From the NCBI GenBank assembly GCA_015227615.1, contig JAALGZ010000056.1:154328-218327 (forward strand): 64,000 nt of DNA, written 5' to 3'. Shown here in pieces: positions 1,409 to 59,496 of the stretch. Each line of letters begins with the position of its first letter. The first letter of the stretch is position 1. The notes under the pieces are model-generated. The model saw only the letters and a list, made by a program, of their open reading frames with translations. It did no database searches and had not been told where the DNA came from. The position numbers and the translations under genes were made by a program. Source of the DNA: Labyrinthula sp. Ha. Taxonomy: Eukaryota; Sar; Bigyra; Labyrinthulida; Labyrinthulaceae.

Positions 1409-2633
1409 CTAAGCATCTAGGAGGCTTTTAAGATGATTAAATACGACAAGCTGTTGCTCCTGGCTTAATCTCTCTGCGCTCTCAATTACTTTCTGCACAG
1501 CCATTTGTGCTCCAGAAGAAGCTGATAAATGAATAAATGCTCTTAAGTAGACAAATGTAAAGGCTCCCATGATCATCTGGCAGTCCATTCGATCCGTCAT
1601 TCCTCCATGACCTGGTATACTGTTGCCAAAATCCTTTATTTTGAAGGCTCTTTTGAATCCACTAGCAAAAAATCCTCCAAAGGGAGCTACCAAAGAGGCG
1701 AACAGAGACAAGTAAAGTGCATGTTGCTGTAACTCCTGTTGTTCGAAATATTCGGGTAAATCACACTTCGGCCAGAACAACAGAGCAAATCCCTCTTTTG
1801 GGCAAGTCATCAGCGGAAAGTGAACCAAAACTCTTGCAAAGAAATGCCCAAAAACTAATGTCGAAAAGAAACCACCAATAAAACCTTCCCAAGTTTTTTT
1901 CGGACTTAATTGAATTAAAGGCGTTCTTCCAAAAAAGAATCCAAAGATGTATGCGAAAATATCATTGCACACAACCAAAGAGCAAGGAAACAAGAACCAG
2001 TATAATCCGTAAAACAAGTTGCTTACAATCGCGGAAGATTGTCCAACAACTAGAAGCAAAACCACATGACATAATCCAAACTTCTGAAACTGGTATTTAT
2101 AATGTCTTCTTTTAAGAGAGAGAACAAACAGCACAACAGAAGAAATGTATACCGAAAACGCAGAGAGCTTTGCATACTCTACAATTTGAGAGAAATCTTT
2201 CGGCTGGTGTTCTGGAAAGTAGGTTCCAAGGTAAATGTAAACTTGTGGCCAGAGGATGTAAAAGTAAATTAGCGATGTGAATGAAGCAAACCAGATCCAA
2301 GGGAGAATTGCGGAGAGTACTGAAAGCTGCCTTTCGCGTTCAGGCTTCTTGTTGATCTGAATCAATTCTGAATACATTGCCGTTTGTATTGCAAAAACTA
2401 GGAGAATACAGCCATTGTGTTGCAGGTAAACAATTATAAAGAGGAAAGAAAAGATCATCACCAAGCTCAAGCTTGCTCTTGTTACGAAATTTGCCCACTT
2501 GCTCTAGGGATTAAACTTAAGGAAAAGATACTTTGGGAGCCGCATCGACTAGTAGGGTGGGTTGTGGAGTTTCTTCTTGAGAACTAGCATCATCTTGGGA
2601 GGAATTCTCATCGACATCGCTTTCACCGCCCAT
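1409..2633 (-). CDS. CDS1: Phosphatidate cytidylyltransferase (CDP-diacylglycerol synthase), two exons
   Basis: Makes CDP-diacylglycerol from phosphatidate and CTP in the ER membrane, the precursor of phosphatidylinositol and cardiolipin. The family signature is present near the C-terminus: SGFKRAFKIKDFGNSIPGHGG, then MTDRMD. SPKKTWEGFIGG is also seen. Several hydrophobic helices fit an integral membrane enzyme. Exon 1 is 2532-2633 (34 acidic residues, start ATG at 2633). Exon 2 is 1409-2503. They are separated by a 28-nt GT..AG intron that restores the frame, so that SKWANFVTRASLSL precedes MIFSFLF, as in animal CDS1. The product is 398 aa, near the usual 400-460. The open frame alone would begin at a TTG inside exon 2. 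Confidence 0.9.
2504..2531 (-). other. 28-nt spliceosomal intron in CDS1
   Basis: Begins GTATCT and ends CCCTAG, with TTTAAT ten bases before the end as a possible branch region. It contains a stop codon in the exon 1 frame. Its length is not a multiple of three, and removal joins two frames that together match the family. Confidence 0.75.
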
Positions 2634-7102: not shown

Positions 7103-8023
7103 CTATTTGAACTTGTGCCTCACCCGAGTGTTCCGAAAGTCAGTAACTCCTTTACCAGAGTTTGTCACACCGACTTTCCCACTCATAACACCACCGACTT
7201 CGGGCACTCTAAAGATACTCGTTTTCAAACCAGTGCTTTCTCTGAACTTTTGCCAATTCTTCTGCCGCTCTTGACTTTCTTCCTCCTTTAAAGCAATCTT
7301 GGATTTTTTCTTTAAGCTCTTCATCATTTTCTTTTTTCTTTGTTTCACAACTTCTGTATCCGTCTCTTTAATCTCATAATGGGACTTCTTCGCGTTCTCC
7401 AAGTAGCCCAGATATTCCAATGGAAGAACTTCTTTAGTATCATATTCAACATAGCTCACCCTCGCAGCCGAATGACTAAGAATTTCAGTCAACACAGCTT
7501 TATAAAATTTACCATCATCGCTAAATCTCGCCAAAACTATCTTCCCAACTAGCTGCGTCAGTTGACTTCGGGAAACAAATGTCAGAGAGTTTTTAAACTT
7601 CAATAATTTTGATAAACTGTCCACATTTGATTTCAAAAAGCTTCCATCTGCAAGATTCCTGAGTGTAACTTCTTTACCCTTAGCATCCTTAGACTCAACA
7701 ACAGCATATATCTCATCTTCTCCTTCTCTTTTTAAAGACACACGATCCCCTATTTCAAAAGATAATTTGGGCAGCTTTCTCTTATTCCCGGAATTTTGTT
7801 TATCCTCGTCTAAATTAACCTGTGAACTCCATGATTCTGCTGTCGAAGTTGTTGATGCCGTTTGCTTCGCTTCAGCGATCAATTTCTGAGTTATAGATAT
7901 ACGCTGTAAAATAATACTTTTTAGCTTAACGAGATCACCATTCTGTTTGTCTTTAGAAAGCAGTTCCTCCACTTTTTTAAGCTTAGTAAAGTTTTCTTCT
8001 AATTTCTTTTTGTTTTCTTCCAT
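7103..8023 (-). CDS. SMNDC1: Survival-motor-neuron-related splicing factor 30 (SPF30/SMNDC1)
   Basis: A nuclear Tudor protein needed for joining the tri-snRNP to the pre-spliceosome. The start is the ATG at 8023 (MEENKKKLEEN, 306 aa); the frame stays open upstream but loses family similarity there. The N-terminal coiled region (KLKKVEELL...LVKLKSIILQRI) matches human SMNDC1. A Tudor domain at about 165-210 contains VGKIVLARFSDDGKFYKAVL and SYVEYDTKEVLPL. The C-terminus WQKF, KTSIFRVPE, SGKVGVTNSGKG then VRHKFK matches the conserved SPF30 tail. A second Tudor-like stretch (FEIGDRVSLKREGEDEIYAV, about 93-140) precedes it and is not typical of human SPF30. The gene is divergent from the next gene (209 bp between starts). 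Confidence 0.88.
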   Translation of the reverse strand: MEENKKKLEENFTKLKKVEELLSKDKQNGDLVKLKSIILQRISITQKLIAEAKQTASTTSTAESWSSQVNLDEDKQNSGNKRKLPKLSFEIGDRVSLKREGEDEIYAVVESKDAKGKEVTLRNLADGSFLKSNVDSLSKLLKFKNSLTFVSRSQLTQLVGKIVLARFSDDGKFYKAVLTEILSHSAARVSYVEYDTKEVLPLEYLGYLENAKKSHYEIKETDTEVVKQRKKKMMKSLKKKSKIALKEEESQERQKNWQKFRESTGLKTSIFRVPEVGGVMSGKVGVTNSGKGVTDFRNTRVRHKFK

Positions 8024-8043
8024 CCGAAGACAATTAAATACAA

Positions 8044-8116
8044 GGCCGTATGGCCCAAAATATTTTTTTGGATACTTGCTCAGGTTCCTCGGGCCATTTG
8101 GCCGTAGTATGGCCAA
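8044..8116 (-). promoter_or_regulatory. GGCC-rich promoter region of SMNDC1 (possibly bidirectional)
   Basis: Contains TGGCCCAAAATAT at 8051-8063, the palindrome GGCCATTTGGCC at 8092-8103, and further GGCC half sites at 8044 and 8111. Both the palindrome and the CCCAAAATAT element recur before the gene at 29852-30064, at nearly the same distance from the start codon. It lies between two divergent genes. Confidence 0.5.
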
Positions 8117-8232
8117 AACAGGCAACCTAAAATTGCAGTTGCAAATAAACAATCTAAAAAAGATTAATTAACCTCTGGAAGAACTGTTAGACCTCCATTC
8201 GTTGAAACCAAACATATATATCTACTAGGTTT

Positions 8233-10640: not shown

Positions 10641-11789
10641 TCAATAACTAGTTCCAATAGAAAAATTAGAGGCATCAACCATTTCATCCAAGTAAGTGAC
10701 AGGGCCGCTAAGCAGGTTGAGTCTTTTCATGCGTTGCTCTATTCTGTGTCTTGTACGTTCAAAAATTCCTATACTTTTAGCTTCAACACTTTGTCTTATG
10801 AGTCTTCTAATTGGCACATGTTTTTTTCTCCTTGTTGGCATAAGACTTTCTGTGAGTCTTATTTTCCCATTTAACCAATACCCTAGCTTAAAATTTTTTT
10901 CTATACAACTTAAAAACAAGGCAAACGCGTTAAGTGGCAGCGCGACGTTCAGTTTAAGACGCAAAAGAAGGTGGTTTGCTACCCTTTTCTTAATGAACAT
11001 CCCCAATATATGAAAAAATGCAGAGCTGCCATGAGTTTCAGTATGAACAAATTCCAGATATAATCTTAGCAGCGATTTTTCCATAAAAACAGGAAGCAAG
11101 GAAAAAAAGAACCTGTTTGTCTGGAGGCAACTCTTGTCTACAACGCAGCTGAGATTTAGTATTTGCAAATTTTCATAGGCGCTTGGTAGCGAATGCACAC
11201 AGGAAGGTACAAGAAAAAGTCCTATAGAGCTCTCTGTTTTAAGATTTCTTATACTTTTACTGTGTTGAGATGCTAAATATTTTTGAAATTCCTTTGCGAA
11301 AAACAGTTTTCGTTCTTTCCACCATGTGTATTTTCCAGTGATCTCCAACGTAGAAAGCTTATTGAGTTCTCTCAAGTATTTGAATAAAAGGAACGCCTCT
11401 TCTTTAGAAAATAATTGTTGGTCCAGTTTTAATATAGTTAGCTCTTCGAGGTCATGACATCTTCTCGAAGCAATCTCCAGTATATGTAGCAGGTTTCTTG
11501 TTCTTTCGAAGCTTCCATACAGCTTTATTTCTTTTATATTATTAGCAGAAATAATAACATTTTCAATATCAGTAAGATTTGACTTGTTTATGATAAAATT
11601 TACCTTTTGGAAGGCAATCGATACTCCTGCCAGCAGATTTTTTGTTACCCGTTTCCTGGCAAGGTTAATAGACGTTGTTACTCTATTAGAAGAAACCATA
11701 GGTTCCCCGCTAATAATAATTGTTCTATCTTTACAAATTTCATAATGTATCATATTTTTTCTTCCATTCCCCTTAAAATATGAATTCAT
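10641..11789 (-). CDS. LRR-like protein family member A, 382 aa
   Basis: Function unknown. It is a clear paralog of the product at 21086-22312. Shared blocks in the same order are: I(I/T)(S/T)GEP near the N-terminus; a helix-rich block LLHILEIASRRC with LFSKEEA; LSTLEITGKYTW; LQILNLSCV followed by TNRFF; and a C-terminal EQRMKRLN. LxxLxLxx units (LEELTIL, LSTLEIT, LQILNLS) suggest a ribonuclease-inhibitor-like leucine-rich repeat fold without strict periodicity. There is no signal peptide or membrane segment. The ATG at 11789 is the first in frame. A TGCCCAAAAT motif (sense strand) lies 49 bases upstream. Confidence 0.7.
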   Translation of the reverse strand: MNSYFKGNGRKNMIHYEICKDRTIIISGEPMVSSNRVTTSINLARKRVTKNLLAGVSIAFQKVNFIINKSNLTDIENVIISANNIKEIKLYGSFERTRNLLHILEIASRRCHDLEELTILKLDQQLFSKEEAFLLFKYLRELNKLSTLEITGKYTWWKERKLFFAKEFQKYLASQHSKSIRNLKTESSIGLFLVPSCVHSLPSAYENLQILNLSCVVDKSCLQTNRFFFSLLPVFMEKSLLRLYLEFVHTETHGSSAFFHILGMFIKKRVANHLLLRLKLNVALPLNAFALFLSCIEKNFKLGYWLNGKIRLTESLMPTRRKKHVPIRRLIRQSVEAKSIGIFERTRHRIEQRMKRLNLLSGPVTYLDEMVDASNFSIGTSY

Positions 11790-11837
11790 TCTTTTCTTCT
11801 CTGCAATAAATCTCTTATTAAACGGCTTGTAAGATCC

Positions 11838-11848
11838 ATTTTGGGCAT
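11838..11848 (-). promoter_or_regulatory. TGCCCAAAAT-type upstream element
   Basis: ATTTTGGGCAT on the + strand, 49-59 nt upstream of the LRR-like A start codon. It is the same motif and orientation as upstream of the WW-domain gene. Confidence 0.4.
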
Positions 11849-13149
11849 ACTTTGTCCAAGATGGACAGATTGGTGGTAATCACAATAAAAAAGAAAATTT
11901 TGGTTTCTAAGACAAGAGATACAATTCTCTAGATTCACTTCGAGCAACTTGGGTCAAACCTATCTTCTTGCCACAAAATATGTGAGCTCTTATATACTCT
12001 CAGTATCAAGGTTATTGGTTTCATGAAAATAATTTTGAACACAATTTTGGAAAACATTGGTGACGTAAATGTGTCACTGCTGCAGGAACTGAACAAGAAT
12101 TAATACCAGATACTTCAAAACATGGAAAAATCAGTTTCAGAACATAAAAGTAACTATTATTAAACTTTTTAATTATTCTGAAGACGTAGGAATATTCCTG
12201 CACTAAGAACATGACTTACGGCTCTCAAAATTGTAGGTTCTCGGGGAAAGAATCCATATTGTTATGGCAGATTTTACAGAAAAATCTCAATTGTTTTAGT
12301 GATTTCTTACTAGTCATGTTTCATTAAGAAAATAATATGATATATATTATTCTTAACATCTCTTGCTAGAGCTGTTAGAAACATTGAGAAAAGAAGTTTT
12401 GTTTTCATTGATCAGTATATCAATGTGTAAGTCAAGAGGAATGTTTCAAGCCAAATAAACAAGTATCATTTTTCTAACCTATTTATTGTTACCGCAAACA
12501 TAACTGGATAATTCTTAATTTAAAATGGAAGTGATGTTGTGAAACTTAAGCTCAATATCGGAAGGCGAGGTAGAACGAAATATACAACTTACAATTGAAA
12601 AGGGAAGAGATCTTCACGTTTTAGATAGGCCCATTAATTTTGGTCCATTTACCTGATATAATATATTAAGTAATCTTGATCAATATATTAGCACAATATT
12701 GGGAAGCCCAGACTTTATACACCAGTCTATATAGAAGAACTTCTAGTCAACCACAAAAATAATATTTATGCGAAAGGGTAAACTGGAATTGAGTCTTTTC
12801 AGAAGAACACTTGAATGGTGAAACAGGAAAATGGGAAATTATGTAAAGAATAGAAAAACGTTCACCCAAAGCCCAGTCCCATGAAGGTGGAATAGGATTG
12901 ATTACTTAAGTCCTTAGAAAACTAGTTGCTCTTGCTGGCCCTCACCTAGCACAGAGAGGAAATTCGTAGCGCAAATTCGATCATATAGACCAAAACGGAG
13001 GAAATTGAAGTTGTCTGAATTCACCACAAAGTAACATATTAACCTATCAAATTGTCTGAGTATTAGTTCATTCGAAGCTATGAATATTCAGATCGGCATT
13101 GTTGCATTAAGAATACAGAATTGTTATTCGCAAAATGATCAACGAGCCG
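11849..13149. other. Stretch without intact genes
   Basis: Many stop codons in all frames. It may include the 5' part of the decayed retroelement that becomes recognisable at 13150, but no endonuclease motif was recognised. Confidence 0.45.
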
Positions 13150-20967: not shown

Positions 20968-21085
20968 TTGTATCGGTAATGGGTCCAGGAGTGATATGTC
21001 CTACATGGACATAGTATGCCTAAAATGTTTTTCCCAGTATTTAAACTGCAAATAGAAGTATAAACTTAAAAAAAAACAGGGAAAA

Positions 21086-22312
21086 ATGAGTTTCATCACA
21101 AGTACGGGGTATAGACCCAGCTCAAATAAAGTATTTTATGAAACTGGGTACATTAATGGAGTTAAGATCACTGGAGAGCCGCATGACACTTACAGAAACG
21201 TAACTGTGGCTGTAGGCGTTGCACTGGAAAGAATTCAGAAACGTAATAAAGTAGTGAAAGAAGTTAAATTTGATAAGTTAAACTTCAACCTCAGTAAGAA
21301 GACACTTATGAATATTGCAACTTTCCTTTCAAAGTCAAAAGAGGTGGAACAAGTCGTGTTCACGGAATCGCCCGGGAAGAAGAACAACATGTTGAAATTG
21401 TTGCAGTTGGTAGCAAAGCAGTGTCCCCAAGTATCGATGATTTCTCTTATGAACATCGACCACCTTTTATTCTCCCCACAGGAGGCTAATGAATTTTTTT
21501 CTTGTTTAAGTTCATTTTCTGAATTAAAAACTTTAAATCTGAAAGGTGTTTATACGAAGAAACTGAAGCGAACAAATAATTTTCAAAAAGAACTTAGTAG
21601 ATACTTATCCAGCTCCAAATGTGATAAGCTAGAGGATCTTATTGTCGAATCGGCTCTAGGGGGGCTTTATGTATCAACTCGAGATGCAATTTACCCAAGT
21701 GTGTTCAATAATCTTCGAATCCTTACGCTGAGTTCTCTACATGAGAAAGACTATTTTCAAACAAATAGGTTTTTGCATTCTTTTCTTCGACTAAATGGCA
21801 CTTTGAATCTTGAAATCTTGCGTACTACGTTTGCTCAGAATCATTCTTCTGGATGTATAGCATATTTTTGGCTTGTCTCAGAAATTGTAAAAAGTGGAAT
21901 GACAAAAACTCTAAGTCTTCGGTGTGATTTGAGTCCGCTGTACTCTTTAGGACCCTATAATTTTTTTCTTGGAAATTTGGAAAAATATTTCCATTCTGAA
22001 AATGAACTTTTGCTACATACACAAATAAGAAGAGCCTTCAGAGCATTTGCTGGAAAACCATCTGGTGCAGGTATAAGACGGTTTGTTGATGCCATCGAAA
22101 AAAAGGTTCCAAACAAAAAAATTACTGAATATAAGAGCGAAAAAATAAATGTACATTCTTTCTCATACGTTCACAAAAAAACAGAAGAGAGGATGAGAAT
22201 ACTTAATAATTCCGTATTGAATCTTGAATACAGAGACAATAGTTGGTATGATGTCAGCAGATTTTGGTTGCAAAGTCAAAATTTAGCAGAAAACCAAAAA
22301 TTCTTTGTATAA
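21086..22312 (+). CDS. LRR-like protein family member B, 408 aa
   Basis: A paralog of the 10641-11789 product; function unknown. Corresponding blocks are VKITGEP; MLKLLQLVAKQC with LLFSPQEA; LKTLNLKGVYTKK; LRILTLSSL followed by QTNRFLHSF; and EERMRILN. Leucine-rich LxxLxLxx units suggest a solenoid fold. There are no membrane segments or signal peptide. The C-terminal third is basic (about 310-370). It lies on the opposite strand to member A, 9.3 kb away, so it is not a simple tandem copy. Identity between the two looks low, implying an old duplication and probably more members elsewhere. Confidence 0.72.
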   Translation: MSFITSTGYRPSSNKVFYETGYINGVKITGEPHDTYRNVTVAVGVALERIQKRNKVVKEVKFDKLNFNLSKKTLMNIATFLSKSKEVEQVVFTESPGKKNNMLKLLQLVAKQCPQVSMISLMNIDHLLFSPQEANEFFSCLSSFSELKTLNLKGVYTKKLKRTNNFQKELSRYLSSSKCDKLEDLIVESALGGLYVSTRDAIYPSVFNNLRILTLSSLHEKDYFQTNRFLHSFLRLNGTLNLEILRTTFAQNHSSGCIAYFWLVSEIVKSGMTKTLSLRCDLSPLYSLGPYNFFLGNLEKYFHSENELLLHTQIRRAFRAFAGKPSGAGIRRFVDAIEKKVPNKKITEYKSEKINVHSFSYVHKKTEERMRILNNSVLNLEYRDNSWYDVSRFWLQSQNLAENQKFFV

Positions 22313-39619: not shown

Positions 39620-41023
39620 ATGAGCAGTTTTTTTGGAAGGAAGTTCAAGAAAGATAAAGACCAAGAGAAAGAAAAACTTCTTAGGTTCACCGACGCTAGT
39701 AATCCAGATCATGTTACGAACACTTACGAACCTTTAGACCCCAAGCTTCAAAATTCTGAGCCCAAGGTTGATAAGAAATCGAAGAAGAAGAAGAGTAAGA
39801 AAAAAAGGAAATCCAAAAGAACGAAAAGAAAACATAAGAGAACTACCCAAGATCCTGGTTTTGATGAAAATGATTTCCCTCCTGCTGAAGATCAAATGCA
39901 GCTTCCAACTCTTGACGAAACTGAGCAAATTTTATTGCATTTACACTCTGAATTGACTGCTTTTTACACAATTTATAACCCCAAAAACGTTGATGAAGAC
40001 GTTTTGACAATCTTAATGCAATTTTTTATCGATGTTGGAGATACTGAGCTTAATGAGAAGCTCAAGAAGAAGTATGGGGCCGATCTTAACGACTTTCGAC
40101 AAGTTCAGGAAGAACAGAACTTTCCACCACCTCCAAATCCAAAAATTTCTATGCCGCCGCCTCCAAGTAATCCCCCTGATATCGAAAGCACCTTGCCGCC
40201 ACCTCCCCCACTGAATATAGCTGCCTCTAATGTTTTTTATTTCCTGCCTTTTATTTTTTAGATGCCTTCTAACGATTACATGGCGCGAACTATTGATAGA
40301 GCGAAACGAAAGAAGATGGAAAGCGAATACGGGATCAACCTACCGCCTCCAGCAAGTATGGAAGATTCAGGTCCAATGGCTCGATATATGAGTGCTGAGG
40401 TTGCTAAATCTTTGCCAAGGAGTTTAAGTAAGAGAAATGTTGATGATGAGGAGTTAACACAGTATAAAGAAGAAAAGGAAAGACAGAGTATGAGTTTAGG
40501 AGAAGATGAAAGAAATAGCTTTGCTGCTGCCTTAGAAGACCAGATGGAGGATGCTGAGAAAAGTGATGCGGAGGGTGAAGATTCAGAGGAAAATTTGGAG
40601 GATTCTATGGAGGAAAATGATGATCTGTTTAAACTCTCTGCTCTTGATGAACCATTTGGAGAGGATGATTTGGAGCCTAGAGATTATATTGAAGCCTTTT
40701 ATTCTAAGCACGATCCAAGTAAGTTGGATCGTGAAGATGGAATTCAAAAATTTGTTAGATGGGTTAATAAATATTCCCTTGAAGAATTAAGTACAAAATT
40801 GGAAGCAAAGTATGGAGAAGGTCTTTATGATTTTACAAAACTAGCTGTAAGAAGGAAAAACTTAGAAAAAATCTTGACTGATTTTTACTTGCAGCATGAT
40901 CGACCAAAATTGGATACTAGATGGACTATATTGAAAATCCTTGCATGGACTTTCCAACATGGATTACCTGCGTTGAATAAGAAGTTTGATACTCGATATG
41001 GTTTGCCGGTAGTTCAGCTATAG
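39620..41023 (+). CDS. Protein with three FYxxY(N/D)P-type helical repeats, two exons
   Basis: The 457-aa product results from joining 39620-40231 and 40262-41023. A lysine-rich stretch (about 52-74) is followed by repeat 1 (about 110-158: FYTIYNPKNVDEDV to KKYGADLNDF), two PPPP blocks (about 169-197), an acidic middle, then repeats 2 (about 345-396: FYSKHDPSKLD to KYGEGLYDF) and 3 (about 403-454: FYLQHDRPKLD to TRYGLP). This FY...P.K...KYG motif occurs in many protist proteins with unknown roles. Proline-rich blocks may bind SH3 or profilin (inference). Finding repeats on both sides of the intron supports one gene. Confidence 0.72.
40232..40261 (+). other. 30-nt spliceosomal intron
   Basis: Begins GTTTTT, ends TTTTAG, is pyrimidine-rich throughout, and sits after codon 204 in phase 0. 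Read through, it gives a stop exactly at its last three bases. The next exon continues the same protein type. Confidence 0.7.
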
Positions 41024-41267: not shown

Positions 41268-42063
41268 TCAAGAAAACAGTGGGTTGCAATTTTGTCCTCC
41301 TCCATCAGTATCTAAATTGCAAGGAAAACTATCTTCAACAAGAATGTTGATTCCGCAAAAACATCCTGCACTACGTTGAACTCTGTCAGTGCAAACTTGT
41401 TCAATCTTATCATTCTCATCAAGAACAATTTCACCGTTTAGACACCTTACAAACGTATTTACACTTGAACAAAATCCAGAAGGTTCTACAAGACCAGAAG
41501 TATTCTTGCAAATCACTGCAAATGCAGAGTCAACTCCACCATCTAAAGGAGGTTCATTTCCCTCAACTTCATCCCCATCCTCGTTATCAGAAGAAAAAAT
41601 GAGTATCAAGACTCCAATTAAAATTGACATTCCCAACAAAAAAACAACAAAGATTTTAAGACCACGTAGAAAAGCCGCCCTTCTCTTACTCTTAAGCTTC
41701 TTTTCCTGTTCTTGGTCATAGATTTCTTGAGGTTTTGTAGAGATCTCAATCTTTTCACCTCGTGCTTCAAGTGCTCTATCTCTGATTAATAGTTGCTCTC
41801 TGTGCTGTTTGAACTGCGGTGTGTTTCTGTACATTGCGATGGACGCTTCTTTAATTTCCTCGTCAGTAAGATTACCTAAAAATTAGATAGAAACAAAAAG
41901 AACTGTCTTTTAAAGCTTGTGCATTAAGGTAATGGCGTGGAGCAGAATAGTACATCATCTTAGTAGAAAACGTGTCATCACTGAAATTTCCATCTGACTG
42001 ATAGATCTCCATATTTTGCTCATTAAACTTATAACTACTTTGGGTACCTGGTGTTGAGTTCAT
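41268..42063 (-). CDS. Single-pass membrane protein with Cys-rich C-terminal domain, two exons
   Basis: 255 aa after joining 41904-42063 and 41268-41875. Not recognised. Residues 1-124 are polar and charged (QEQEKKLKSKRR just before the membrane). One transmembrane helix lies at about 125-147 (LKIFVVFLLGMSILIGVLIL). The outside part has an acidic stalk and eight Cys (VICK, GFCS, VRCL, QVCT, CFC, FPCN, QNCN), so probably four disulfides. There is no signal peptide, so type II topology with the Cys domain outside or lumenal is likely. The intron join yields LKDSNLTDEEIKEASIAMYR, clearly sense sequence. Confidence 0.72.
41876..41903 (-). other. 28-nt spliceosomal intron
   Basis: Begins GTTCTT, ends TTTTAG, with TCTAAT ten to twelve bases before the end. 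It splits an AGT Ser codon after its first base. Its length is not a multiple of three, and removal joins two long open frames. Confidence 0.8.
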
Positions 42064-47459: not shown

Positions 47460-50045
47460 CAAGCTCTTAAAGGAATTAATTAGGCTGTATAGACTAACCC
47501 TATGGCGAGGGGTCAACCTACCATTAGCAATTACATACTAGGATACTAAATTTATCAATACTCGCAATTATTGGCTTTCCGTTATGTTGCATATTGTTAT
47601 CATCTTCTGGTTGGTTCGTTTGCAGGGTTCCATGAAGCTAGTTAGTCACGCTATGTGTCCGGGTTCAGTTCCACGATTTCCCTAAATTCTGTCTGAGACG
47701 ACACAATCTACATTAAAATCAAAAAGAATAAATTGCATAAAAAGAATAAAGAGTCTCACATGTAGTCATTTCAAGCGATCAAGATGTTTTTGGCGTCAAA
47801 TTTTTGTTCTCATGTGTTTCTTTATACTTCTCGTCCATGTTCTGCGCAGAGTTGACATTATGTTAAGTGATTTGATTCTTTTGCTGGACATGTTACTTCT
47901 GTAAATCAAACCTCTTCATCAAAGTGTTGTTGGACATATTTGAGACTTTTTGGATTTTATTGTCCTATGGGGATGATATTTTCTGTTGAAAGGTGATTTT
48001 TTTTTGTTATTTTTAGATTAGTTCAGTGCTTTCTACGGGATTTGGTGAATTCTTGTTTTTGGTAGCTGGGGGACTTCATTTCTCATTTTCCATTTATTTT
48101 CCATAGAATATGTTGAAATGGTTTCTGGTCAAGTAGAGTGCTTCAGTGGTTACTTTCTATTCTTTCAGTTGACGCCATAGGCCCAGGACTTGTATTATTT
48201 AAATCCTTTCTGTTCTAACTGCAGACACATTCATATGTTCAAAAAGCTGAATTTACTCCAGAGGGTTCAACCCTCGGCTACTTAGATTTATTCTTGTAGT
48301 TATGGTTTAGACTCTCTTGCTTGCGTTTCGTCTAGAGTTTAAACTGTTGTATCTCGGGCTTAGTATGGAGCCTGGTGGCCTTCTTATTATTATTATTCCT
48401 CCGGGCCCTCGTTGTATCGTTATTTTCTAGTTCCTGTTCCTATCTTGGTTATCCCACGTTGAAGTTTGGCTATGGTTTGGTTAGTGATTTTTTTGTTTGT
48501 AATCTTGCCGGGTTATTCGGTGATGTTGACCCTTCTCCAAGTAGTGCTATAGCTTCCCAGTAATATATAGGTTTGACTTGAGGTGATGGAACTGGGTTGA
48601 GTTTTGGGGGTTTCTGGATAGCTGTAAATTCATAGTCAACGATATTTCTTGCTTCTGATATGTGGTTTTGTCGTAGAGATTTGAGTATCTTTATAAGATC
48701 CAGGTCTTCTTCTTCAAGTTCAAAGTTATAGTGTTCCTGTTTAGAAATGAGTTTCTTAAATTCTCTGGACATTTTAGATAAAGTTTTACTCATTGATGTG
48801 TTCTGGGACCACTTTTTATCGTTATTTGTTTTTAGTGCAAAGATTATAGTTCTTGGCAGATTCTTGTATAAACCTGTGCTGATGAAAAACTATATCTCCA
48901 CCTATTTATGCCGTTGTGCGCTTCTGAAATTTTCTTAACTTTGGCATCCGAATGAATTCCTTGACCATCAGTCATAGATGCTAAATACTTTTATTTTGTT
49001 AGTGCTTCTATTTTCTTTTTCTGTATTATCAGGTTATTTGCTTTTGGTTGGATATTATCGTCAATTATCCTTTTTCTATCCGTTACCACCAGTGATTCCA
49101 CATTAATTCGGCTTTTACTTCGGTCGTAAAATCAAGAACTAGTGTCGCAGATGAGGAAAGTTAATTATGAAGATACTTGTCGCAGAACGCACAATAGAAG
49201 CTGGATAATATTCTGTCTATATCAATATCTGAAGTTCTATCAATAATGTTTTGCCTTCATTGGTTAACTAAACGTTTTTTTTATATTTTTTTAAGCCAGT
49301 TATTTGATGCACTTATTGTATATGGGTGACAAAACTTATTATTTCATCGCTGTTTCTTGTCAAGAGAACTGGACCAGCCGCAAACAGAAAGTACAAAAAT
49401 TTGCAGTTGTACAAAGTGATACCTCTTAGCGTATTATTTTTTATTCGGTCCATTATTGAATTCCAGAAAAGAATTAATATGCTGAGGGATAGTGAATCCC
49501 CTTGCAAGACTCTTCTTTTTACATCAACGTAAGAGCTCGTTTCTCCGCTGTCAGAAACACAAACTTTCATTTTTTCTTAAAGTGTTTAATGAGCTTAAAA
49601 ATTTTCTCTGGCATTTTATATTCTATTAGAGTTAGGATGATAAACTGGTGTGAAATGCTGCCAAATATCTTAGCAAAGTCTACGAAAAGAATGCACAGAG
49701 AAGCTTCTTGCTTAAGAGTCTCTTAGATGATGGTGCCCAATGCTTCTACCTTTTGAATTATTTATATCTTGTGCCCAAAGCCCGCTTGATAGTCAGACAG
49801 TACTTCAAGTACCAGCTCCAGTTGGTTATTTATTTTTTTCGTTAGAAGTTGAAAGTGTGAGCTCAACAGAGATACGACTCTGCAATTAGACGGATCACTT
49901 TTGCTACCTTTTTGTTTGTACAAGTATTTAACTTTTCCTTTGCACATTTTGTTTATTCTGCTTGATTTTGAGTTTATCCATTATAAAGAAAGATTGAAGA
50001 GTTCTTATTGATTGCTTCTGAACTTCTGGTATTTTCTTGAGAACC
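47460..50045 (-). pseudogene. Dead, 5'-truncated LINE copy
   Basis: Follows the neighbouring intact LINE from RT domain 0 to its 3' UTR. KVKYLYKQKGSKSDPSNC matches KVVYLYKQKGSKNDPSNY. KVCVSDSGETSS and VLQGDSLS match. The catalytic FADD motif has become FAAG, which would abolish polymerisation. The C-terminal NFELEEEDLDL and QVKPIYYWEAIALLGE match FQLEEDDLDL and TVKPIYYYEALALLGE. The 3' UTR is shared (ACCCTATGGCGAGGGG versus ACCCTATGGCGGGGAT). Similarity stops at the intact element's target duplication, so it was truncated or cut there. Multiple frameshifts. Confidence 0.85.
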
Positions 50046-50771: not shown

Positions 50772-53700
50772 TCAGGATGGAAGAATTTCGTTTATTTGCT
50801 CCAGCAGCTGAATATAGTCCATTGGGTTCATTCCTCTTCCTCCAGCTGTTATTCTCGACGTTTCTCTTAGTGCTTTAGGTGATATTCTGGTTGTTGCGTT
50901 TTCTGTGGGTTGATTGTGGATGTTGTATCTTGGTCGAAGGATGGGTGTTGTTGGTCTTCTGCTCGTGTCCATGTTCCTGTTCATATCCAAGTCCAAGTCT
51001 GCGTTCCTGTTCAAGTCCAAGTCCGTGTTCCTGTTCGTGTCCAAGTTCCTGTTCAAGTGCTGGCTCCTGTTCAAGTGTTCTTCTGGTTCTTGGCTTCTTG
51101 TGCAGTTTGAAGGTTGGTTCTCATTTTCAGGGTGGTGGGTAAAGTGGGATGGTGGTGGGTCCTCAGGCGGCACTGGTTCTTCTCCTAGTAACGCAAGCGC
51201 TTCATAGTAGTATATAGGTTTTACTGTTGGTGGTGGTGATGGGTTTTGAAGTTGGTATTCTCTCAGAGCTGTCAGTTCTTTATCGACAATATCTCTTACT
51301 GTGGATTTATGGGTTTCCTGACGTTTTTTTACTATATTGGTGAGGTCCAAGTCATCCTCTTCTAGTTGAAAGTCAAAGCTGTCAATCCTGTCTATGGTTC
51401 TCTTCAGCCTTCTTGATATCTTTGTTAAGGCTTTTGTTATCTTCACGTTGGATGGCCAGTTCTCTACATTGTATATGGCTGGAGCTATTACTAGTGCTCT
51501 TGCCAGATTGATTCTTGTTTTCTTTTGGATGTTTGAGGAAGATAATATGTCTCTGAACCTGTTGATATGACTGTGTGCTTCATTTAACTTCTTGGAAATA
51601 GCATCAGCATTAATACCTTGTGGGTCAAAGATAGCTCCAAGATATTTGTACTTTGTCACGGCTTCAATTGTTTCTGCTGCTACTTCAACGTTGCTTGTTT
51701 TGGGTTGGATTTTGTCGTGTATGATCGTTCTACTGTCAGTAACAGCTAAAGTCCCAGCTCTGCTTCTGTTGCGTGTTCCATCACAAAACCTCGAGCTTTT
51801 GTGACACCTTAGTGACGTTTCTGAGTGGAAATATCTATCGCAACGTTCGCAGTGAAAGTTGGTCAATATTCTATTTATATCTACGTCTGGGATTTTATCA
51901 ACCAAACTGTAGCCTTCGTTTGTGAGCATAACTTTTGTCTTGCTAACATTAATTTTTAGGCCTGTGAGTTGTTGAAGGTTTTGCAGTTGCGTTACAAAGC
52001 TGATTATTTCTTCGTCGTTCCTTGTTAGTATTACTAAGTCGTCTGCAAAAGCAAAGTACCTGAAGGTTTGGTTGTGTAAGCTGGTTCCTTGTAAGGTATT
52101 ATTTTTTATTCTCTTCATTATAGAGTCAAGACAGAGGATAAAGATGCTTGGAGACAAACTATCTCCTTGAAGCACACCTTTTTTTATGTTTACTAAACTA
52201 CTTTTTTCTCCGCTGTCTGAAACGAAAACTTTGGTCTTGTCGTAAAGGATGGTGATAAGTTTGATGAGCTTTTTTGGTACATGATGTTCTTCTAGAGCTA
52301 GCTTCATGAATTTATGCGAAATACTATCAAAAGCTTTCGCAAAGTCTATGAAAAGAATTCGAAGATATATTTTCTGTTTCAGAGTTTCCTTTATGATTGT
52401 ATCAAGTGCTTCAATTTTCTGTATCGTTGAGCGGCTGTTTCTGAATCCTGCTTGATAATCTGGAAGCTTATTCAGTATTGGTGCTATTCTATTGTTGATG
52501 ATTTTTGTGAGAAGTTTAAAGTGAGAGTTCAATAGTGTGATTGGTCTATAGTTTGAAGGGTCGTTTTTACTTCCCTTCTGTTTATATAGATACACTACTT
52601 TGCCTCTACAGATTTTTCTCATCTTTTTAGACTTGAACGCATCTAGCCTGAAAAAAGATTGGATTTCTCTAACAGCATGTTTTTGAACTATTTCGACATG
52701 CTTCAGGACCTCGTTTTTTATGTTGTCTGGTCCTGGAGCTTTATTATTCTTTAGGGTTTTGATACATTCTTTGACTTCATCTGTTTTTGGAGGATGAATG
52801 TTTATGCTGTTTGAAGGAGCCGGTGCAAGTATTGGAGTTTGGTAATGTCGTATTTGGTTTTCCGTCAGTAAGTTCGTTGGAAGTGGTAGGTTTTGTTGCT
52901 TCTCTAAATATTCTTTTAGTATCTGAATACGACCTGCGGTTCCCACCAACTTCCCAGCTGTATTCTTGGTTATTTTACCGAACTGTTTACGGACTGGTTT
53001 TACCTTCTTTATCAGTTGATACCCGGTTCTCGTATTGTTGCTTTGGAACGCAGTTTCTGTTTCAGACGCTATTCTCTCCAACCAGTTGTTGTAGTCTTCT
53101 TTAGCTGATCTTTTTACTTCGTTTGTAATTCTTTTCTTCTCCTCAGGATTTAGGTTGTTCCAGTTGGCTCGTTTGTACCTCATCAAAGACATGGTTTGTT
53201 CCGAGTTCTGGTGTTCAGGAAGGTTGTAATTGACTTCTGGGAGATGTTTCTTCATGATGGATGGAATTGAGTGGGTTAGAGTAAGGTAGGTGTCTGTTAG
53301 TGTGTCATTTAGTTCAAGTACCTCCTTGAGATCACTACTTATTTTCTCTTGTAGCGCTGCATTGGACTTTAACACACTGTAGTCCAGCTGTGATCTGGGT
53401 CTCTTCTTCGATGTATGTTTCTGATGCAAGTTCACCCTTATTGAAAGAGCTAGATGATCGAAGTTTTTCTTCATCCACAGGTTGTATGCTATGGCTGAAG
53501 ATATTTTGAAGCCAGTTATTGCAGGTACATGGTTCGTGATTACATAGTCAATTTCAGATGGCCCCCCACTATTTGACCTTGGCATGAATGTAGCATGTTT
53601 CCTAGAGCCTTTCATGCCTGTAACAGCTAAATGGTTACAGATTGTTAGCTCTTTTTCTTTCAAGAACTCCACCAAGAGTTTACCATTAGAATTCGTACGA

Positions 53701-54269
53701 TGAGAGAGTCCTAGTTTACCTTCTACATTTAACTCCTTTCTTGAAACTTGAGCATTGAAATCACCACAAATGAGAACCAACCTTCTCTTGTTAACTCCAT
53801 TCAGCTTTGACTTGAGCTCCTTCAGGTACATCTTGTACGTTTCTTGACCGTGACCGTAGTGTGGCGCGTAAGTGTTAACCAAGACGAGACTTCTTTTTCC
53901 ATCTAGTTTGACAACCAGCTTCAGGATCCTGTCGCTTCTTCCGTCTGTGTCCGTTACTTGACTAGCAAGCTCGTTACACAGGAAAGTCGCTACGCCCGCC
54001 GCTTTTTCAGGCAGTTTTGAGAAAAACCACCTTCCTGAAGCCGAGCTAACGTTCACCATTCGCTGTAGGCGTTGCATTCCTTGCTTGTGCAGTTCCTGTA
54101 ACATTAAAATGTCAGTTTTTTTAGTAAGTTGTTGTACGTAGCTGCACTTAAAGGCAGTTAGACCACCAACATTCACGCTCACCAGTTTAGGAAAGCGCTT
54201 CAGTCGGCTCGCTATCCCTGGGACTTCTCTCGAAGGAGTAGACAGGTCGCTACTCGGAAAACTTTGCAT
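50772..54269 (-). CDS. LINE polyprotein: AP-endonuclease and reverse transcriptase, 1165 aa
   Basis: Endonuclease (about 28-280): SVNVGGL, MLQELH, VNTYAPH, ICGDFNAQ, SEIDYVITN and FDHLALS carry the expected Asn, Glu, Tyr, Asp, Asn and His, for nicking target DNA. Reverse transcriptase (about 495-890): SNYRPITLLN, YQAGFR, FIDFAKAFD, GVLQGDSLSP, FAFADDLVIL, GLKINVSKTK and YKYLGAIFD, with the three catalytic Asp present. Unusually, a C2HC finger (CERCDRYFHSETSLRCHKSS then RFC, about 807-829) sits between RT motifs D and E. The C-terminus has an Asn/Asp/Arg repeat (about 1060-1100) and PIYYYEALALLGE. No RNase H was recognised. Confidence 0.95.
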   Translation of the reverse strand: MQSFPSSDLSTPSREVPGIASRLKRFPKLVSVNVGGLTAFKCSYVQQLTKKTDILMLQELHKQGMQRLQRMVNVSSASGRWFFSKLPEKAAGVATFLCNELASQVTDTDGRSDRILKLVVKLDGKRSLVLVNTYAPHYGHGQETYKMYLKELKSKLNGVNKRRLVLICGDFNAQVSRKELNVEGKLGLSHRTNSNGKLLVEFLKEKELTICNHLAVTGMKGSRKHATFMPRSNSGGPSEIDYVITNHVPAITGFKISSAIAYNLWMKKNFDHLALSIRVNLHQKHTSKKRPRSQLDYSVLKSNAALQEKISSDLKEVLELNDTLTDTYLTLTHSIPSIMKKHLPEVNYNLPEHQNSEQTMSLMRYKRANWNNLNPEEKKRITNEVKRSAKEDYNNWLERIASETETAFQSNNTRTGYQLIKKVKPVRKQFGKITKNTAGKLVGTAGRIQILKEYLEKQQNLPLPTNLLTENQIRHYQTPILAPAPSNSINIHPPKTDEVKECIKTLKNNKAPGPDNIKNEVLKHVEIVQKHAVREIQSFFRLDAFKSKKMRKICRGKVVYLYKQKGSKNDPSNYRPITLLNSHFKLLTKIINNRIAPILNKLPDYQAGFRNSRSTIQKIEALDTIIKETLKQKIYLRILFIDFAKAFDSISHKFMKLALEEHHVPKKLIKLITILYDKTKVFVSDSGEKSSLVNIKKGVLQGDSLSPSIFILCLDSIMKRIKNNTLQGTSLHNQTFRYFAFADDLVILTRNDEEIISFVTQLQNLQQLTGLKINVSKTKVMLTNEGYSLVDKIPDVDINRILTNFHCERCDRYFHSETSLRCHKSSRFCDGTRNRSRAGTLAVTDSRTIIHDKIQPKTSNVEVAAETIEAVTKYKYLGAIFDPQGINADAISKKLNEAHSHINRFRDILSSSNIQKKTRINLARALVIAPAIYNVENWPSNVKITKALTKISRRLKRTIDRIDSFDFQLEEDDLDLTNIVKKRQETHKSTVRDIVDKELTALREYQLQNPSPPPTVKPIYYYEALALLGEEPVPPEDPPPSHFTHHPENENQPSNCTRSQEPEEHLNRSQHLNRNLDTNRNTDLDLNRNADLDLDMNRNMDTSRRPTTPILRPRYNIHNQPTENATTRISPKALRETSRITAGGRGMNPMDYIQLLEQINEILPS
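50966..51080. repeat. Short tandem repeat within the LINE ORF
   Basis: Imperfect units of the GTTCCTGTTC and AAGTCC type encode LNRNxDxDL-like repeats near the polyprotein C-terminus. Length variation between copies is expected. Confidence 0.7.
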
Positions 54270-54295
54270 TTTAGCTTCGTCCTTGACGTTGTTTT

Positions 54296-54309
54296 TTCAA
54301 GCCCGGTAA
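54296..54309. repeat. LINE target-site duplication, 5' side
   Basis: TTCAAGCCCGGTAA, identical to 50046-50059. Confidence 0.75.
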
Positions 54310-54495
54310 CACCCTATTGTAGAAATGGATAAAATGGTCAAACATATGTCTATCTTGGACATAACACAATTAAAGCTGCAAATTACGAAACCTAAAGTCC
54401 CCTTCTTAACAAATCAAAAACTAACTAAAAACAAGAATGATTCGAATGCTAACTGGGGTAAAAAATGAGTTTTTCTTTTATGATTTAGTTGATAA

Positions 54496-54523
54496 GCGGA
54501 AACTCGCCGCTTAGGCGGAAACT
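54496..54523 (+). promoter_or_regulatory. GCGGAAACT direct repeat upstream of the J-like/UBA gene
   Basis: GCGGAAACT at 54496-54504 and 54515-54523, 19 bases apart, with CCGCTTAGGCGG between. It is GC-rich in AT-rich DNA. The complement reads TTTCCGC, E2F-like (inference). Confidence 0.35.
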
Positions 54524-54569
54524 AAGTTCTACTTTCTCCTTGACTGAAGACTTTACACACGAACAATTT

Positions 54570-54598
54570 GTATGTCTCTTATTAACTATTATACTTAG
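54570..54598 (+). other. Candidate 29-nt intron
   Basis: Begins GTATGT, contains TTAAC and ends CTTAG, of the same size class as the three firmer introns here. It precedes the open J-like frame in phase 0, but no ATG in frame is found before it, so exon 1 remains unresolved. Confidence 0.35.
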
Positions 54599-55147
54599 AC
54601 ACCAACACAACAACAAATACAGGAAATAAACCGCATATTAAATGCTAAGAACTTATTTGAAGTACTTGAAATAGCTCCAACCTACAAACTTAATATTGAT
54701 CCAACTCTTGAAGATACGGCAACGCAGAACTATAGTACGAAAATACAACTTCTTCGCCCTTTTGAGATTGATCATCCAGATATTGACAAAGTTTATGATC
54801 TTCTTGTAGAAGCCTTGGAGATATTAACACATCCAGAAAAGTTGAAGAAACACTATCTTGATTGTTTCCCAGGAGAAATTCTTCCAGAAGATGCTCCTCA
54901 ACAGCAAAGGCAGGTTGAACAAATTTCAGATGGTCATGTTAAAATTGGTGATCTAAAGGAATATCAGCGTGAAAAACTGGTAAATGAAGTTCCACAACTG
55001 GCTGAATACTTTGCAGAGGATATTTATCAGGAAGATCTGACAGTTCTCGCGGGAATGGGTTTCACGGATCGGCAGCGAAACATCGAGTTATTGAAAGAAT
55101 ATCAGGGAGATCTCAACGCTGTACTTGCTGCGTATGGAATCATTTAG
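54599..55147 (+). CDS. J-domain-like and UBA-domain protein, 5' end unresolved
   Basis: Coding sense extends well upstream of the first in-frame ATG (54815), to at least 54599. RILNAKNLFEVLEIAPTY, then about 45 residues, then LVEALEILTHPEKLKKHYLD has the layout of a J domain. A canonical HPD loop is not in place: IDHPDID comes late, so Hsp70 stimulation is doubtful. The C-terminus (LTVLAGMGFTDRQRNIELLK through GDLNAVLAAYG) is a UBA domain, a ubiquitin binder. The ATG at 54572 is followed in frame by TAG at 54596, which is also the end of the candidate intron. The stop overlaps the convergent WW gene by 8 bases. Confidence 0.6.
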   Translation, partial: TPTQQQIQEINRILNAKNLFEVLEIAPTYKLNIDPTLEDTATQNYSTKIQLLRPFEIDHPDIDKVYDLLVEALEILTHPEKLKKHYLDCFPGEILPEDAPQQQRQVEQISDGHVKIGDLKEYQREKLVNEVPQLAEYFAEDIYQEDLTVLAGMGFTDRQRNIELLKEYQGDLNAVLAAYGII

Positions 55148-55541
55148 CTTCTGGGAAAAACCAGGTTGTTAATTTTCTTGATTCATTCCAGTAAAATCGC
55201 CTCTTCCGGTCTGGATCATACTTCTCGGTCCATCCAGGTGGTAGGAAGACAGGATGTTCGGGCTTATCCCATGTAGGTTCTTCTGTATATTCATTCCAGT
55301 AATAATATTTTTTACTCTGTTCATCAAAATGCTTTGAGTATCCAACCGGCAGTCTTTCTTCATCAATTTCCATCGATTGATTTTCTCGTGCTTGTTTGAA
55401 TATTTCAGGTTCGTCCCAAGTTGAAGCTCTTGTGCTTTTATTCCAATAATAAAAATGTTTTCGCTTATCGTCGAAGACTCTCATCCATTCTCCCAAGTGT
55501 TCTCTTCCTTTTGCATCCAATCTAATCTTCAGTTCTTCCAT
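55140..55541 (-). CDS. Small protein of three WW domains, 133 aa
   Basis: WW1 (about 11-44): GEWMRVFDDKRKHFYYWNKS then STWDEP. WW2 (about 62-94): LPVGYSKHFDEQSKKYYYWN then PTWDKP, with Tyr for the first Trp. WW3 (about 98-133): LPPGWTEKYDPDRKRRFYWN then TTWFFP. WW domains bind proline-rich peptides. Nothing else is present, so it is probably an adaptor, with Prp40/splicing-type or signalling partners possible (inference). The start ATG is clear. A TGCCCAAAAT element (sense strand) is 46 bases upstream. The 3' end overlaps the J-like/UBA gene. Confidence 0.85.
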   Translation of the reverse strand: MEELKIRLDAKGREHLGEWMRVFDDKRKHFYYWNKSTRASTWDEPEIFKQARENQSMEIDEERLPVGYSKHFDEQSKKYYYWNEYTEEPTWDKPEHPVFLPPGWTEKYDPDRKRRFYWNESRKLTTWFFPEAK

Positions 55542-55586
55542 TTCGATCTTAAGTTTTAAGAGAGAGCTAGTTTCATTTTGCGTTTA

Positions 55587-58335: not shown

Positions 58336-59496
58336 ATGAATTCAATTTCCGAATGGAAAGAGTTCGTTGCTACATTTGGTAAATTGCAAGAACAAGTACT
58401 CAAGAAAAATATTATATCATGTATCCAATTTTTTAATCGTCTTTCCTATAATGTATCTAGAACTTTTACTGCAGCGAGCAACATCATTGAAAGGAAATTA
58501 AACTTAATTTTCTCAGAGCTGGTTCTGCGTAAACAAGAACCAAAATTTAGGGCTGTTTTTATTATAATTTTATCTTTTTCTGCTTTTATTTTATGTTCTC
58601 TAATACTTTTTTATCTACAGAAACCAACTTTGAGTGTCCAGCCAGGCAAGAACCCTGAAAAATCTCAAACTAAGAACGAAGTTTTGGCCGGAAAAAAAAG
58701 AACGGTTAAAGTTCCAAAAAGTTTTAAACGGCCCACTAAGAGAAGTAAACGGAAATTTTATGTAAAGCAAAAGGAGTTTGAACCACATAAGACTGTTAGA
58801 AACACAAAGTCAAGCTTGGCTAGGAAACGTAAAGAAGAAATTCTCTCTTTACAAAGAAGTTTGCAATCTCTAGATAAGAATTCTTTTAAAAGGAAATTAG
58901 ATAGCCTATACTCGGTGAATAAAAAGCCACAGTCCAAGTCACAAAATTTCAAATCTAGAGTGGTTAGAATAAGACCAAGATATAAGACATTACCGAAGTT
59001 GAAACAGAGTAGTTATTCAGAAGATAGTGCTGAGAAATTCAAAAAAATGTTACGTTTTGGAGTTCCGCTTTCTGCTGTGTTACAATCCTTGAACAAAGAA
59101 GATCTTGATCCAGCTGCTTTGGAAAATATAAAGAAAGAACTTGAAGAATTTAGTCTTGTTGTAGGATCAGCAGAAACAAACAAGAGAAAGGAACAGAGAG
59201 AAGGGATTAAACTGGATAAGTATGAAATGATGCGAAAAGTTGGTATTCCAGAAAAAGCAGTTCAACAAGCGATGAAAAATGATGGCATAGATTTAGGCTC
59301 CGTGTCTTTGAGAACTGTTATGGCAGATGAATCTGCAGAAACGAAAGTTGCAGAAGATGGAGATCCACTTGTGATGGAGCTAAAAAGTAAACTAGAAAAA
59401 GGAAAAAGTGTCAACAGATTGATAGACAGTAAATTATTTAGAAAAAGGATTGTCAAACATCGTGTGAATAATACGACCCCCAAATGGAGAATTTGA
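58336..59496 (+). CDS. Single-pass membrane protein with CCDC53-like motifs, 386 aa
   Basis: The start is the ATG at 58336 (MNSISEW). One transmembrane helix at about 74-94 (FIIILSFSAFILCSLILFYL) separates a small helical N-terminus from a very basic middle region (about 110-230, many KRK/KSK clusters). Two motifs follow, KMLRFGVPLSAVLQSLNKEDL (about 237-257) and MMRKVGIPEKAVQQAMKNDG (about 297-316). They resemble the MLxxGVPxxAVxxKMxxEGLDP motif of WASH-complex subunit CCDC53 and some other cytoskeletal proteins. Here they are anchored to a membrane. An actin-related role is a guess. Confidence 0.65.
   Translation: MNSISEWKEFVATFGKLQEQVLKKNIISCIQFFNRLSYNVSRTFTAASNIIERKLNLIFSELVLRKQEPKFRAVFIIILSFSAFILCSLILFYLQKPTLSVQPGKNPEKSQTKNEVLAGKKRTVKVPKSFKRPTKRSKRKFYVKQKEFEPHKTVRNTKSSLARKRKEEILSLQRSLQSLDKNSFKRKLDSLYSVNKKPQSKSQNFKSRVVRIRPRYKTLPKLKQSSYSEDSAEKFKKMLRFGVPLSAVLQSLNKEDLDPAALENIKKELEEFSLVVGSAETNKRKEQREGIKLDKYEMMRKVGIPEKAVQQAMKNDGIDLGSVSLRTVMADESAETKVAEDGDPLVMELKSKLEKGKSVNRLIDSKLFRKRIVKHRVNNTTPKWRI

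Follow-up and report, generated by a model that had tools for sequence, protein, structure and literature searches.

The few introns in the stretch of DNA analysed here (64,000 nucleotides, hereafter the window) are, with high probability, ultra-short U2-type spliceosomal introns of 28–31 nt. At least two genes probably carry such introns: a CDP-diacylglycerol synthase-type gene (abbreviated CDS, which here does not denote a coding sequence) and the FY-repeat gene (FY). The preliminary description of this DNA had listed segments of 28 or 30 nt in CDS, FY and a Cys-rich membrane gene (Cys), and a further one of 29 nt in what we here call the UBA gene (UBA), and had read them as ultra-short spliceosomal introns. 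All four segments were recovered at the same positions and with the same lengths, and all four end with TAG. With an additional segment in UBA, there are five candidates of 28, 30, 28, 29 and 31 nt, all with GT..AG ends (Table 1). As judged from the DNA and its translations, ultra-short spliceosomal introns are supported as the best reading of these segments; the support is strong for CDS, good for FY and moderate for Cys and UBA.

Table 1. Proposed exons and candidate introns of the four genes, with positions in the window.
Feature	Position	Strand	Remarks
CDS proposed exon 1	2532..2633	-	34 codons from ATG, open frame to donor; codon score +7.8 bits
CDS candidate intron, 28 nt	2504..2531	-	GTATCT..CCCTAG; putative branch TTAAT, A 7 nt from end
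CDS exon 2	1409..2503	-	Pfam PF01148 (E 4.3e-64) matched from residue 9 on; no Met before residue 16
FY-repeat gene exon 1	39620..40231	+	204 codons, one repeat unit, proline-rich end
FY candidate intron, 30 nt	40232..40261	+	GTTTTT..TTTTAG, in-frame TAG; putative branch TTTAT, A 8 nt from end
FY-repeat gene exon 2	40262..41023	+	one unit aligns with the exon 1 unit; further copy by eye
Cys-rich membrane gene possible exon 1	41904..42063	-	ATG-initiated; codon score neutral, -1.2 bits
Cys-rich candidate intron, 28 nt	41876..41903	-	GTTCTT..TTTTAG; putative branch CTAAT, A 7 nt from end
Cys-rich nested alternative, 19-nt GT..AG	41876..41894	-	fits same frame as 28-nt choice
Cys-rich membrane gene exon 2	41268..41875	-	codon score +15.7 bits over first 80 codons
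UBA gene possible exon 1, 7 codons	54437..54457	+	frame logic only
UBA candidate intron, 31 nt	54458..54488	+	GTAAAA..ATTTAG; TTTAT, A 8 nt from end; newly noticed
UBA gene possible exon 2	54489..54569	+	27 codons, no ATG
UBA candidate intron, 29 nt	54570..54598	+	GTATGT..ACTTAG; no yUnAy with A 7-8 nt from end
UBA gene exon 3	54599..55147	+	C-terminal UBA-like domain, weak UBA matches; no Met near start

The gene content indicates nuclear eukaryotic DNA. The window encodes, among others, the RNR large subunit, an acyl-CoA dehydrogenase, an RGS-domain protein, a WASH-complex CCDC53-like protein, cyclic-nucleotide-binding and WW proteins and the CDP-diacylglycerol synthase-type enzyme, and it contains a LINE with endonuclease and reverse transcriptase. 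On the basis of these predicted proteins, the genes show the window to be nuclear DNA of a eukaryote. Under table 11, the long ORFs of conserved proteins remain uninterrupted, and all three ordinary stop codons occur at their ends; thus, the standard code fits. We counted about 17 genes, LINE excluded, and 13 of these are single ORFs without a candidate intron, so that introns are rare as far as a 64-kb window goes. Stretches of several kb contain no ORF of 100 aa, and the intergenic DNA is wide. The G+C content per 2 kb is 32–41% across the window, and the sole Rfam match at the gathering threshold within it is a tRNA.

Reading frames of the four genes

The strongest case comes from CDS. The Pfam match of exon 2 (CTP_transf_1) starts upstream of the first Met (Table 1), and an in-frame TAG, which is the last TAG of the 28-nt segment, stands directly upstream of residue 1. 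Between this stop and the residues shared with a homologue, the downstream frame contains no Met. Among the relatives of exon 2 in genome_contigs (80 of 341 loci kept), a single locus, L001, has a listed match start before residue 78. Its alignment begins at residue 1 of exon 2 (SKWANFVTR versus NKWSSFRAR), the same start was found in a second search of the genome that contains L001, and the raw score of 375 from residue 1 decreases to 355 if the comparison starts at the first Met, a loss of 20 units. The frame of L001 likewise has no upstream Met. Since the Pfam match and the L001 match both begin before the first Met and beside an in-frame stop, the coding sequence must come from beyond that stop; as far as these alignments can tell, something must be removed or bypassed upstream of exon 2.

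The upstream side of the join is less firmly tied to the protein family. Adding exon 1 raised the L001 score from 375 to 386, a value that was equalled by 63 of 500 shuffles of exon 1, and exon 1 is thus not significantly confirmed by homology. Among the listed matches of the exon 2 protein in phages (14 of 14) and in plasmids (20 of 78), all are named after phages or bacteria, and none begins before residue 24.

The contig of L001 (JALRFH010000167.1) is filed as a Halieaceae MAG. Its positions 1–1500, which carry a eukaryote-type CDP-diacylglycerol synthase stretch, look eukaryotic by eye and the remainder looks bacterial, so that the contig is an apparent chimera or contamination.

The two FY ORFs share one frame and are separated by a single TAG, and the removal of the 30-nt segment results in one protein. 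A repeat unit (ELTAFYTIYNPK...) occurs on both sides of the stop: the unit of exon 1 aligned to that of exon 2 with a score of 68, whereas the maximum among shuffles was 47 and none of 1000 reached 68. Both flanks have a positive codon score (+17.0 and +24.5 bits). Read through, the segment would encode VFYFLPFIF*, which by eye is out of character with the proline-rich, hydrophilic surroundings. The claim that FY needs this removal is hence backed by the repeat unit on both sides of the TAG, although the ORFs could formally be two genes or be split by a stop variant.

Sequencing or assembly errors could in principle have produced such interruptions, and a single wrong base would be sufficient for the FY stop. 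In CDS, however, reading from the upstream frame into the segment gives TAA after four codons and then TAG, and the downstream frame is closed by its own TAG; a one-base error cannot close both frames. Furthermore, the same kind of segment is found in separate genes. We thus regard errors as an extremely improbable explanation.

For Cys, the removal of the 28-nt segment joins an ATG-started frame of 53 codons to the downstream ORF. The preliminary description had stated that this removal is needed, which we cannot uphold: with a Met of its own as residue 17, the downstream ORF does not strictly need the intron, and the nested 19-nt segment is an alternative. From the reading frames, the Cys intron is a plausible candidate.

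This internal Met also fits a reading without any introns, where Cys would be translated from residue 17, FY would be two genes or a stop variant and CDS would have a non-AUG start or be broken. The ATG of the second FY ORF, which follows immediately after the TAG, agrees with this reading as well. It is nevertheless very unlikely, as repeat units flank the FY stop, the CDS homology extends to the in-frame stop with no Met between, and pyrimidine-rich GT..YAG segments occur in excess at these stops (see below).

The UBA ORF at 54599 has no early Met, and upstream sequence is thus needed. Joining across the 29-nt segment alone reaches an open frame without ATG. If both the 29-nt and the 31-nt segment are removed, a seven-codon exon with ATG is joined, resulting in 217 codons including the stop and no internal stop. 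The fourth candidate of the preliminary description is thus present in the DNA, but it works only together with its partner at 54458–54488.

The junctions could also be real introns with other boundaries, either longer introns with other donors or, in Cys, the 19-nt segment. To compare the choices, all GT..AG segments of 12–400 nt were enumerated, which gave 12, 6, 9 and 8 frame-restoring choices with an upstream ATG for CDS, FY, Cys and UBA, respectively; those for UBA are single-intron choices and are all at least 111 nt long. In addition, the first UBA intron has one other short open route (28 nt, 54469–54496). The eleven other choices for CDS, of 15, 30, 46, 48, 81, 112 and 221–299 nt, likewise leave a frame open. 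Against other boundaries, the 30-nt choice in FY retains by far the most upstream codons, 204, which end at the end of the first ORF itself. The 28-nt choice in CDS retains 34, the most among the choices below 200 nt, whereas the 221-nt choices retain 48 codons of another ORF. We favour the 28-nt choice on two grounds: almost all of the upstream ORF is retained, and the interior of this segment, the one examined among the CDS choices, is rich in pyrimidines. Since the short segments of both CDS and FY are unusually rich in pyrimidines, we consider different boundaries unlikely, and the short segments remain our preferred introns.

Chance expectation and putative splicing signals

To estimate how often such segments arise by chance, we asked whether the in-frame stop upstream of an ORF overlaps a GT..YAG segment of 24–34 nt. 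Of the 24 ORFs with 130 aa or more, 18 entered this stop test; six were excluded by judgement, namely 2–1342, which is not closed at the edge of the window, one LINE fragment and four antisense or overlapping ORFs. As a control, we took the frequency of such overlaps among all like stops of the window, with Poisson probabilities, and the interior pyrimidine content (Y) served as a threshold. At Y of at least 0.6, six segments were observed compared to 1.82 expected (P 0.011), and three compared to 0.33 if a branch motif was demanded (P 0.0045). At Y of at least 0.7, the numbers were four versus 0.45 (P 0.0012) and, with the branch motif, three versus 0.11 (P 0.00022). At Y of at least 0.75, they were three versus 0.21 (P 0.0012) and three versus 0.06 (P 3.4e-5). 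All six settings thus yield an excess, with P from 3.4e-5 to 0.011, where the thresholds were partly set after the candidates had been seen and the loci were picked by the reader, but all 18 ORFs were scored. The three recurrent segments are those of CDS, FY and Cys. The fourth positive at Y of at least 0.7 is a 25-nt segment (54574–54598) that is nested in the 29-nt candidate of UBA and is not the candidate itself.

Two further ORFs, 7103–8167 (31 nt) and 21056–22312 (29 nt), have stop segments that pass only at Y of at least 0.6; we rejected both, as the ORF itself offers a start Met further down.

The interior pyrimidine content is 0.75 in CDS, 0.88 in FY and 0.83 in Cys. Among the 3136 GT..AG segments of 26–32 nt in the window, these values are reached by 1.7%, 0.03% and 0.3%, respectively. 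The UBA candidates are less striking: 6.3% of the background reach the content of the 29-nt segment and 32% that of the 31-nt segment, whose value of 0.56 is ordinary.

A motif of the form yUnAy with its A 7–8 nt from the end is found in four of the five candidates (CDS, FY, Cys and the 31-nt segment of UBA). The putative branch A occupies position 21 in both CDS and Cys (7 nt from the 3' end) and position 22 in FY (8 nt); in the 31-nt candidate it occupies position 23, again 8 nt from the end. Another TTTAT, with its A at position 8, lies close to the 5' end of the FY segment. The 29-nt candidate is outside this spacing, with an A at position 16 and 13 nt from the end or at position 12 and 17 nt from the end. 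Such branch spacing occurs in 4.5% of the 1379 background GT..YAG segments, and the share is 10.9% among the 92 segments whose Y is 0.7 or more and 17.0% among the 47 whose Y is 0.75 or more; these frequencies are to be read with the branch distance and the Y thresholds chosen after the candidates were seen, a loose motif (TTAAT, TTTAT, CTAAT) and a sample of three to five. A loose intron motif has 132 matches in the window, four of which are candidates, and at Y of at least 0.75 there are 19 matches, three of them candidates. One match of 26 nt (58595–58620) within the ORF of the WASH subunit was rejected, as its removal would shift an open frame.

We also scanned joins with all dinucleotide ends by codon statistics. 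GT..AG was not singled out, as it ranked 168th and 134th of 256 in the two scans, with fewer joins than the mean (42 versus 58 in the first, 6 versus 7.6 in the second). The model behind the codon scores is weak, as it gives -7.9 bits to the beginning of CDS exon 2, a sequence that is certainly coding. In our judgement, the scans mainly reflect joins within long ORFs or at their termini and a weak codon signal, and are thus uninformative rather than refuting, yet they provide no support for introns.

Based on general knowledge of the U2-type spliceosome, we infer that an ordinary spliceosome would remove each segment. U1 and U6 would recognise the GT at the 5' end, and U2 would pair with a loose yUnAy branch sequence about 21–23 nt from the 5' splice site. 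The pyrimidine-rich interior may act as the polypyrimidine tract, and the TAG 7–8 nt downstream of the putative branch A would be the 3' splice site. An unspliced mRNA would encounter a stop codon or a change of frame at once.

Known short-intron systems

The preliminary description had named Blastocystis, ciliates and chlorarachniophyte nucleomorphs as lineages with such short introns. These three are documented in the passages cited below; mikrocytid Rhizaria, with introns of 16–17 nt (PMC10245619), were missing from the list. Intron length alone is thus not new, as it is similar in ciliates and Blastocystis and shorter in nucleomorphs and mikrocytids.

Blastocystis is anaerobic and has a compact genome. 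For subtype ST1, the cited passage reports 35,412 predicted introns, over half of which are 30 bp long (PMC5608401). The candidates described here are similar to these in length (28–31 nt in five candidates); however, Blastocystis is intron-rich, whereas we find five candidates in about 17 genes, beside a LINE, in one window.

The macronuclear genome of ciliates is gene-dense and without retrotransposons, in contrast to the window with its wide intergenic DNA, a LINE ORF of 1174 aa and a related fragment. According to the cited passages, ciliate introns are 20–33 nt long in Paramecium tetraurelia and 21–29 nt in Nyctotherus, their retention leads to stops or frame shifts (PMC2633312), and the mean number of introns per gene is 2.7 in P. 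bursaria (PMC12862383). Paramecium and Nyctotherus thus share with the candidates both similar intron lengths and the stop or frame shift on retention.

Mikrocytids resemble the window in having few, very short introns in transposon-bearing DNA. The cited passages describe introns of 16 or 17 nt with highly conserved sequence, 224 of them in 179 genes of M. mackini, a transposon-invaded genome and a much reduced metabolism of these parasites (PMC10245619). Compared to these lengths, the candidates are longer, and only the 19-nt alternative in Cys comes near. The same source cites introns of 18–21 bp for chlorarachniophyte nucleomorphs and of 15–16 bp for heterotrich ciliates; a narrow range of tiny introns is shared with these, although theirs are shorter than the candidates in the window. 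For Stentor, the cited passage (PMC9505925) places the branch A of 15-nt introns mostly at position 10, so that the candidates are nowhere near the published minimum. With 28–31 nt compared to a minimum of 15 nt, the suggested bearing on minimal spliceosome geometry is only modest.

Concerning the branch point, the distance to the 3' splice site is described as constrained in some intron-poor species, and the branch sequence of E. cuniculi is given as CTAAYTT (PMC2483917, passage cited). The CTAATTT of the Cys candidate resembles it, whereas the branch motif of the window is looser overall. Fused branch and 3' splice motifs, as described for diplomonads and parabasalids in the cited passage (e.g. 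VCTRACACRCAG, PMC6679479), were not seen in the candidates.

Two further groups were considered and rejected. Ascetosporea parasites have a GC content of 24–33% and canonical introns except in two mikrocytids, according to the passage cited (PMC11069148), and nothing links the window to them. The nuclear genome of Anaeramoeba ignava is given as 80.65% A+T (PMC11550330, passage cited) and is thus unlike the window with its G+C content of 32–41% per 2 kb.

Among the papers listed in searches of open-licence literature for particular phrases, none was seen to describe an intron-poor, transposon-bearing genome with introns of 28–31 nt. We tentatively raise the possibility, which we hold to be less probable than its opposite, that ultra-short introns arose here independently and without genome compaction, outside the published short-intron lineages, in an intron-poor, transposon-bearing and metabolically ordinary nuclear genome, with introns of 28–31 nt and a branch A 7–8 nt from the 3' splice site. 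If so, ultra-short introns would be present in a genome lacking both compaction and an abundance of introns, which would help to disentangle the causal roles of genome reduction and intron shortening. It would also provide another natural test of the limits on the spacing among the branch point and the two splice sites, and the organism would be mis-annotated by gene finders whose minimum intron length is larger.

Further observations in the window

The LINE ORF with endonuclease and reverse transcriptase is located at 50772–54296 (-). A related fragment, 2 kb away at 48470–48889 (-), is 45% identical over 109 residues to the C-terminal part of the LINE ORF. No relatives of the LINE, CDS exon 2, UBA exon 3 or FY exon 2 were found in viral_contigs, and the first 25 kb of the window had no megablast match in phages.

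The UBA ORF (54599–55147, +) and a WW-domain ORF (55140–55583, -) are convergent, and their 3' ends overlap by eight bases, whereas other intergenic spaces span several kb. Inside the proposed UBA exon 2, at 54496–54522 (+), there is a short direct repeat of GCGGAAAC around CGCCGCTTAG, which might instead be a promoter-like element.

Two ORFs of about 415 aa each, 10641–11879 (-) and 21056–22312 (+), are paralogous, with 27% identity over 361 residues. No Pfam family matched them above the cut-off, and they are perhaps a lineage-specific gene family. Lastly, the ORF at 7103–8026 (-) encodes a Tudor-domain protein with weak Tudor matches, whose layout presumably resembles that of the splicing factor SPF30/SMNDC1.
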